The notes below the pieces were generated by a model. The model saw only the letters and a list, made by a program, of their open reading frames with translations, was not told the origin of the DNA and searched no databases. A DNA stretch of 64,000 nucleotides from Methanosarcinales archaeon Met12 (GTDB lineage Archaea; Halobacteriota; UBA148; JAJOKI01), in the NCBI GenBank assembly GCA_002813105.2, contig CP017966.2, forward strand, positions 372,001 through 436,000, written 5' to 3'. Made by a program: the position numbers and the translations under genes. Of the stretch, positions 26,618-62,292 are shown piece after piece (within the stretch, counting starts at the first letter, position 1; each line of letters opens with the position of its first letter).

Positions 26618-26689
26618 TTATTTACGTCCAAAGCATATTAACCCTTAAGAATGCGCCGATAGTCTAGTGGCCATGACATGGGCCTTCCA

Positions 26690-27055
26690 ACAACCTTTTA
26701 AAAAAGGGTGGTTCCTGCTTCGCGGAAACACCTTCACTCTGCGTAGCAGAGGTGAAGGTTGATCAAAAAATGTGCTGCACTCGCTAACGCTCGGCAGCAC
26801 TAAGGAAATTCTCACAATAATCAACTACAAGAACGATCAACCTGCTCACTGCTCCGTGTGGCAGATGGAACATCTGCCACTCCGTCTAAATCTCCGGATT
26901 TAGTCGGCAGTGAGAGGGCCTCTACGAAGTAGCGGCTCCTGTTTGCAGGTTGGTTTGCAGGTTGGAACAGCGCGACCCCATGACCTATTGAGCGAAGCGA
27001 GATAGGTCGTCGAAATGATCAACCTGTTTGCAGGTTGGTTTGCAGGTTGGAAGAT
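26690..27055 (+). other. tRNA-Gly(UCC) intron, structured
   Basis: 366 nt with several hairpins. GGTGGTTCC...GGAAACACC (26708-26733) is followed by CCTTCAC-TCTGC-GTA-GCAGA-GTGAAGG (about 26732-26760); both are shared with the intron of tRNA-Gly(CCC). Further on are GTGCTGC...GCAGCAC (about 26771-26799), CCTATTGAG...GAGATAGG (about 26984-27005), and two copies of a GTTTGCAGGTTG doublet. No ORF is convincing. Confidence 0.75.
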
Positions 27056-27066
27056 AGCCCATGACC
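26938..27066 (+). repeat. Duplicated 3' splice-site region with 12-bp tandem doublets
   Basis: The segment CCTGTTTGCAGGTTG-GTTTGCAGGTTG-GAA occurs at 26938-26967 and again at 27023-27052. Each copy consists of two tandem GTTTGCAGGTTG units and is followed by a sequence ending in CCATGACC. Only the second copy has GAAG-ATA-GCCC and can form the splicing motif; the first reads GAAC and cannot pair with CUUC. Confidence 0.75.
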
Positions 27067-27106
27067 CGGGTTCAAATCCCGGTCGGCGCATTAAAGAGGA
27101 GTCCAA

Positions 27107-45071: not shown

Positions 45072-45110
45072 TGCGGCTGCCGGGATTCGAACTGAAGGGT
45101 TACACCCTTT
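45072..45110 (-). pseudogene. tRNA-Gly 3'-end fragment
   Basis: The minus strand reads TTCGAAT-CCCGG-CAGCCGC-A, the 3' part of a T-arm and acceptor strand identical to tRNA-Gly(CCC) at 45197. The 5' side of the T-stem is wrong (TTCAG instead of CCGGG), and no matching 5' half lies upstream. It is a dead duplicate immediately downstream of the functional gene. Confidence 0.65.
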
Positions 45111-45196: not shown

Positions 45197-45378
45197 TGCG
45201 GCTGCCGGGAGTCGAACCCGGGCTTCAAGCTATTTCCGCAACCCTTAAAGTTTCCTTGTGTTTTTGATGAAACTTTACCTCTGCTACGCAGAGTAAAGTT
45301 GTTCCCGCAAAGGGGGAACCAACTTTTTTCTAAAAGTTTCTTGGGAAGCTTAAGTCCTAACCACTAGACTACAGCCGC
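45197..45378 (-). tRNA. tRNA-Gly(CCC) with a 110-nt intron
   Basis: Exon 1 is 45342-45378 and exon 2 is 45197-45231. Acceptor GCGGCTG/CAGCCGC, anticodon stem UAAGC/GCUUG, loop UUCCCAA with anticodon CCC, T-arm CCGGG-TTCGACT-CCCGG, discriminator A. The splice motif has UUCC:GGAA between bulges CAA and AUA; the inner helix has a mismatch. The intron (45232-45341) holds two hairpins homologous to those of the tRNA-Gly(UCC) intron. Confidence 0.9.
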
Positions 45379-62179: not shown

Positions 62180-62292
62180 CGTCCCAGCCGGGACTTGAAC
62201 CCGGGTCTTAGGCTATCTGCAAGTTTTCCATCAACGCTTTTTGCGAAAAGGGTTGCCGCAGGCCTAAAGGATATCCGCTACCCTACTGGGAC
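62180..62292 (-). tRNA. tRNA-Arg(GCG) with a 41-nt intron
   Basis: Exon 1 is 62256-62292 and exon 2 is 62180-62214. Acceptor GTCCCAG/CTGGGAC, anticodon stem UAGGC/GCCUA, loop CUGCGGA with anticodon GCG, T-arm CCGGG-TTCAAGT-CCCGG, discriminator G. The splice motif has CUGC:GCAG between bulges GGC and AUA; the inner helix is weak. Its first ten bases overlap the 3' end and stop codon of ppa. Confidence 0.9.

Follow-up and report, generated by a model that had tools for sequence, protein, structure and literature searches.

Adjacent hairpins recur, with paired base changes, in the introns of two tRNA-Gly genes of the archaeon Met12, which raised the question of whether these introns hold an RNA that is preserved by selection or a piece of DNA that has been copied. 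Met12 is a Methanocellales archaeon from The Cedars springs with a circular genome, which was circularised with mate pairs (PMC11176372). The stretch analysed here, referred to as the window, comprised 64,000 nucleotides of its one contig of 1,067,436 bp (G000:C1:372001-436000). Genomes were labelled G000 for Met12 and G001 to G010 for its relatives, giving 11 genomes of the same order; G001, which was 76% complete, belonged to the same genus as Met12. By argG, the closest relatives were Methanosarcinales/Methanocellales MAGs. The sample of the phylum comprised 295 genomes, these 11 and 284 others.

Analysis with ARAGORN, with introns allowed, identified the first gene as tRNA-Gly(tcc) with an intron of 366 nt at the canonical 37/38 position. 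The Rfam gathering scan of the window did not pick up this gene, presumably because the intron was so long. The intron was longer than the preliminary description had claimed, whereas the limits given there for the Gly(CCC) intron were correct. The features of the two genes were as follows.

26653..27090, plus strand: tRNA-Gly(UCC) gene, with the 5' exon at 26653-26689 and the 3' exon starting at 27056
26690..27055, plus strand: modular intron of tRNA-Gly(UCC), 366 nt, from the sequence and ARAGORN
26692..26709, plus strand: host (first-level) hairpin AACCTTTTAAAAAAGGGT, which folds separately and is present in the orthologous introns of G005 without the insert
26710..26759, plus strand: double-hairpin element with two hairpins, 50 nt long with the duplicated right-end arm AAGGT counted in
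26760..26769, plus strand: conserved tail TGATCAAAAA, which belongs to the host hairpin element, is kept across copies and is also found in empty-site introns
26772..26800, plus strand: hairpin module GTGCTGC..GCAGCAC
26838..26952, plus strand: nested palindromic module CAACCTG..CAGGTTG, from blastn in the own genome
27020..27049, plus strand: terminal module CAACCTGTTTGCAGGTTGGTTTGCAGGTTG, which supplies the 3' strand of the intron end
45197..45378, minus strand: tRNA-Gly(CCC) gene (Rfam RF00005, 48.8 bits; identified as tRNA-Gly(ccc) by ARAGORN once spliced)
45232..45341, minus strand: intron of tRNA-Gly(CCC), 110 nt
45321..45339, minus strand: host hairpin AAACTTTTAGAAAAAAGTT of this intron
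45271..45320, minus strand: copy of the double-hairpin element
45261..45270, minus strand: conserved tail TCATCAAAAA

Near the 5' end, both Gly introns showed the same order of host hairpin, two adjacent hairpins and tail (GATCAAAAA/CATCAAAAA); in Gly(UCC), the core of the element with its host hairpin and tail spanned 26692-26769. Both pairs of hairpins that had been described as shared between the introns were confirmed, and the structured element that they formed was homologous in the two introns. The host hairpin was a third one, located at the 5' end (AACCUUUU..AAAAGGGU or AACUUUU..AAAAAGUU). The second stem in Gly(UCC) was also present, but its true reading was GCAGA-GGTGAAGG, and the version first noted was short of one G, a bulge. 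The G+C content of the element was 50-56%, compared with 46% for the window.

The 3' part of the Gly(UCC) intron consisted of modules with equivalents elsewhere in Met12. Base-changed equivalents of the GTGCTGC..GCAGCAC hairpin were found in other introns (GTCCTAC..GTAGGAC and GTGCTAC..GTAGCAC). The CAACCTG..CAGGTTG module was common to the introns of tRNA-Gln(UUG), His, Arg(UCU) and Met and to the 3' flank of tRNA-Thr, and it matched G000:C1:966582 with 97% identity over 133 nt in a blastn search of the own genome. Other hairpins and repeats were linked to tRNA genes as well. The intron of the initiator tRNA-Met (G000:C1:333.8-334.0 kb) contained tandem copies of a minimal host hairpin, CCAAACTTTTTAATAAAAAGTTTGAACAAAAA, and that of tRNA-Lys(CUU), about 295 nt long (G000:C1:1026.2-1026.6 kb), contained a tandem host-type hairpin with very different stem letters (AAGCGTTC..GAACGCTT). 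The 41-nt intron of tRNA-Arg(GCG) (window 62180-62292, minus strand) held a related hairpin type (CAACCCTTTTCGCAAAAAGCGTTGATGGAAAA), examples of which occurred elsewhere among the introns and in the Met12 RNase P RNA. At window 45072-45092 (minus strand), after tRNA-Gln(UUG) (L041) and after tRNA-Glu (L163), a copy of the 3' end of the tRNA gene lay shortly downstream of that gene; the sequence between gene and copy was hairpin-rich and resembled an attachment-site or arm duplication. At G000:C1:701.7-702.2 kb, the 3' end of a tRNA-Leu gene (CAAATCTCGCCCGGGGCTTTTATGACC...) was a copy of the 3' end of tRNA-Thr together with the module downstream of it, which was itself repeated, and this tRNA-Leu gene is possibly a pseudogene or a recombination junction.

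The termini CAACC..GGTTG of the Gly(UCC) intron could pair as the h' helix in a bulge-helix-bulge motif, with CTTC:GAAG as the central helix. A bulge-helix-bulge could be drawn for both Gly genes from their CAACC:GGTTG-like intron ends, with one inner-helix mismatch in Gly(CCC). Isolated junction folds gave alternative pairings, and the toy fold of Gly(UCC) preferred a variant without the 5' bulge. The joined exons of Gly(CCC) were read by ARAGORN as a normal tRNA, and the tRNA endonuclease domain (PF01974) was found in every genome examined as two matches in one ORF. Splicing of these introns probably proceeds.

To find where else the element occurred, the 13-mer loop motif TCTGCGTAGCAGA was searched in the Met12 genome, with tRNA isotypes also taken by eye from the anticodon loop because ARAGORN mislabelled some long-intron genes (e.g. 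His). The motif had 7 exact matches and 8 with up to one mismatch, and the backward-read control gave 2. All seven exact sites were located in tRNA introns, namely those of Gly(UCC), Gly(CCC), Thr, His, Arg(UCU) and two tRNA-Leu genes, in which the introns were located in the D-loop. The one-mismatch match at 345110 was dropped as the surrounding sequence did not contain the element. An eighth, diverged copy was identified in tRNA-Ile, and all eight Met12 copies were in tRNA introns. A covariance model built from these eight revealed 24 distinct copies in 7 of the 11 genomes of the order (Met12, G003, G004, G006, G008, G009 and G010), each palindromic place being counted once since reverse-strand matches there reflected the palindrome and not extra copies. 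The same model found no copies in G005, G007 or the incomplete G001, and it gave no match at E<=1e-5 among the 284 genomes of the phylum sample outside the order; a weak match in G024 (E 6e-4) was left out of the count. The exact core pattern had no match in other genome contigs, with records resembling its own excluded. Further copies, which the preliminary description had proposed to seek by such a search, were thus found, and with 24 of them an element limited to two paralogous introns was ruled out. A virus or plasmid origin was rejected, since two exact patterns were unmatched in viral contigs and the intron had no blastn match in phages or plasmids. Assembly error was an unlikely source because the same element appeared in independent assemblies and Met12 had been circularised with mate pairs (PMC11176372).

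The claim that the element was specific to paralogous tRNA introns was not supported. Twenty of the 24 copies were in tRNA introns, two were intergenic, one was within the RNase P RNA gene and one was within hisD. In G003, the hisD copy was in frame and the ORF was open throughout, so that the gene had 450 codons compared with 433 in the congeners G005 and G007, a difference of 17 codons or 51 nt. At this spot, G005 and G007 had the small host hairpin only, the family-f2 genome G002 had neither, and the element was found in none of the other relatives read there. In G008, the element was located within the archaeal RNase P RNA gene, and the RNA was 420 nt long compared with 294 nt in three relatives. 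The G008 RNA was enlarged at the 5' loop, which was CAACC-GAA-GGTTG in those three relatives, and at one other place; no direct repeats flanking this copy were found. The RNase P RNA of G005 (312 nt) had a host-type hairpin only, and those of Met12 (401 nt) and G003 (432 nt) were also enlarged, mainly in the same loop, by other hairpins. This loop, probably P3, was an insertion hotspot in the order, with gene lengths from 294 to 432 nt and hairpins that differed by genome. Both intergenic copies lay within about 15 bases of tRNA genes. Further palindromes were nested in the element loops of three G003 copies, including the G003 copy beside tRNA genes, which had a second palindrome in the element's own loop. 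A separate palindrome, ACTCCGTCTAAATCT..AGATTTAGTCGG, which also occurred in Met12 tRNA introns, encoded TPSKSSDL(I/V)GVE, shared by in-frame insertions of about 25-40 residues in guaB (IMP dehydrogenase; G000:C1:329203) and the family-B DNA polymerase (189947) of Met12; these insertions were absent from the best PDB homologues.

Comparison of orthologous introns revealed empty and filled states of the same site. In tRNA-Thr(UGU), the intron of G005 was empty (AAACTTTTACAAAAAGTTTGATCAAAA) and G009 had the same intron with about 51 nt more, the downstream TCGGGTCAAAAATGCAAGATATCACTAGG being the same in both. The Gly(CCC) and His introns were empty in G005, the Arg(UCU) intron was empty in G003, and the Glu(UUC) intron was empty in Met12 and filled in G003 and G009. 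The insert lay within the 3' arm of a hairpin that was already there, and direct repeats of this arm usually flanked it. In 13 of 21 copies, the 5-nt arms to the left and right of the insert were identical, and in 19 of 21 they shared at least four of five bases, so the two arms look like a single target arm present twice. The copy in the G003 Met intron was set in a different hairpin, with the 11-nt repeat GGTGGGTCGTT flanking it on both sides. Apparent truncated remnants in the Lys(UUU) introns of G003, G005 and G009 suggested that losses happen too. The direction of change was clear, as a gain, only for hisD and RNase P, where one genome was filled and several relatives were empty. Since the Thr, Ile and Gly(CCC) introns were filled in both Met12 and G009, some of the empty sites may be precise deletions between direct repeats.

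The observed dispersal, the copies outside tRNA genes, the empty and filled sites, the direct repeats and the pairing are best explained by a mobile palindromic DNA element, a double hairpin about 50 bp long, in the order of Methanocellales-like archaea to which Met12 belongs, and a probability of about 0.72 was assigned to this explanation. Copies would have been inserted repeatedly in the 3' arm of an older hairpin, CAAMCUUUU-loop-AAAAGNUUGAYCAAAA, which is common in tRNA introns, and each insertion would leave short direct repeats of the host arm on either side. The movement would take place at the DNA level. The introns may serve as a safe haven, as the tRNA splicing endonuclease would cut them out, and a few copies may have settled in other tolerant sites, namely the RNase P RNA gene, the in-frame spot of hisD and the spacers beside tRNA genes. 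Being a palindrome, the element would stay paired, and its outer stem would pair with the host arm that had been duplicated. Within Met12, the copying of entire intron blocks from one tRNA gene to another probably contributes to the spread. RNA-mediated copying by a resident reverse transcriptase was rejected, as none was found in any of the 11 genomes of the order, and an element of the IS200/IS605 or REP type was rejected because the Y1 (HUH) transposase PF01797 was absent from Met12 and from the copy-rich G003 and G009.

The alternatives to a mobile element are not mutually exclusive, and the first of them concerns the pairing itself. The two Gly copies folded with z-scores of -3.6 and -4.5 against dinucleotide shuffles, with 0-1 of 200 shuffles folding equally well. 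Across 21 copies, 91% of the pairs in the two-hairpin structure were standard and 10 pairs were changed on both sides; 31 cells were changed on both sides compared with 9.7 +/- 2.4 in the shuffled and slid controls, although the tool warns that related copies inflate such counts. The paired differences noted earlier between the Gly copies were thus real and stood above chance, but the conclusion drawn from them, that paired changes alone indicate selection on an RNA, was not supported, given the copies in hisD, the RNase P RNA gene and spacers, the presence and absence of the element at the same site in close relatives and the partial origin of the outer-stem change in the duplicated arm. An alternative structure built with the left arm scored about equally. 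The C/A and G/T differences in the outer stem between the two Gly copies were those of the target arm, and much of the outer-stem paired change follows the duplicated target arm. Where the target arm was AAGC (Glu and hisD), the internal arm stayed ACCTT and was mismatched, as expected of a constant element in varying targets; the His copy was mixed. The inner-stem changes (e.g. columns 52-67: UA, CG and GC) were independent of the duplication, and these could also result from palindrome correction during replication. Templated correction of quasi-palindromes is a mechanism known from other organisms, and it would keep a neutral element paired with no selection on RNA. The pairing was also kept in the protein-coding hisD copy and alongside the nested palindromes, and the changes of the outer arm tracked the duplicated arm. 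This account leaves the dispersal unexplained; it is compatible with a mobile element and is held here as a tentative possibility, somewhat on the unlikely side.

Against a mobile element stood the negative searches for a reverse transcriptase and a Y1 transposase that might move it. The constancy of the insertion point also argued against it, since most inserts shared one position within the same host hairpin, and gene conversion between introns could mimic transposition in this way. Whole intron blocks might be copied between tRNA genes, by ectopic gene conversion or by intron transposition of the Thermoproteales type, with the double hairpin as a passenger. The modules 3' of the element were shared in blocks and reshuffled among the Met12 introns, the Leu introns at 139k and 701k were alike over the entire 5' part, and Thermoproteales are known to have introns that are alike in different tRNAs (PMC4033280, PMC4090602). 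However, in G005 and G009 the Thr and Gly(CCC) introns kept their own flanks and differed mainly by about 50 nt at the insertion point, the G003 Met copy was in another hairpin, and hisD and RNase P are not tRNA introns. Block copying is unlikely to replace the mobile element as the explanation, but gene conversion or intron transposition is a serious partner to it. A more specific version of the mobile element is quite doubtful, namely that a hairpin element with no transposase copies itself into the 3' arms of other hairpins, duplicating the arm and pairing it with a complementary arm inside the element, and needs neither a reverse transcriptase nor a Y1 transposase; its record would be preserved in the tRNA introns, the RNase P RNA and the protein genes of a single order of archaea. 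It is improbable that the hairpins are a conserved functional RNA of the excised introns, binding a protein or acting after splicing with the pairing kept by selection, because the both-side changes at 10 pairs above both controls, the fold z-scores and the retention of the element by two families in their orthologous Thr, Ile and Gly(CCC) introns, which favour it, are set against orthologous introns of close relatives lacking the element (none in G005 and G007), in-frame and RNase P RNA copies, nested palindromes that break up the loops of either hairpin in G003 copies, and Rfam matches in the window to no known functional RNA family except tRNA.

How archaea acquire tRNA introns, and why unrelated tRNAs carry introns that are alike, has long been asked, but a mechanism is lacking. 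The introns of the 1.07-Mb Met12 genome can be read as layers of palindromic insertions, and since close relatives show both the empty and the filled state, gain, copying and loss become traceable event by event. They also give a caution, as paired base changes in paralogous introns need not imply RNA function. The literature searched contained no report of an archaeal element of this kind, and a double-hairpin element of archaea living mainly in tRNA introns is a new variant among the known systems. It resembles the GC clusters of yeast mitochondria (GC42 and others), which are palindromes of about 42-50 nt with no gene of their own, with sporadic presence and absence at homologous sites, short direct repeats, and merger and shuffling of units (PMC4478555). 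Those clusters are mitochondrial, mostly intergenic and flanked by AG or ACT duplications (PMC4478555), whereas the element of Met12 is in an archaeal chromosome, mostly in tRNA introns, and duplicates a hairpin arm. The double-hairpin elements of Allomyces and the repetitive hairpin elements of sponge mtDNA likewise consist of adjacent hairpins, have copies in RNA genes and spacers and differ in copy number between close species (PMC2800124). The Allomyces elements are without flanking duplications (PMC2800124), and the archaeal element, from another domain of life, has direct repeats. Because it is located in an archaeal chromosome and not in mitochondrial DNA, it only works like GC clusters and double-hairpin elements and is not classed as a member of either. 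The Rickettsia palindromic elements are palindromes inserted in frame in protein genes (PMC10969869), as is one archaeal copy (G003 hisD). They are about 150 bp long, encode a conserved peptide in many proteins and are known mainly from protein genes (PMC10969869), whereas the present element is about 50 bp long and mainly in tRNA introns, with one protein gene, and the likeness drawn here is one of description; the palindrome family of the Met12 guaB and family-B DNA polymerase genes is closer to them than the double hairpin. The mobile-element model for Caldiarchaeum is also similar (PMC3293823). In Thermoproteales, nearly the same introns occur in different tRNA genes of one genome at canonical and non-canonical positions, and the introns themselves are reported to move (PMC4033280, PMC4090602), whereas a sub-intron palindrome is the unit here and is also found outside introns. 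The element of Met12 thereby joins three phenomena that are usually kept separate: transposition of tRNA introns, mitochondrial hairpin elements and in-frame palindromes of protein genes.
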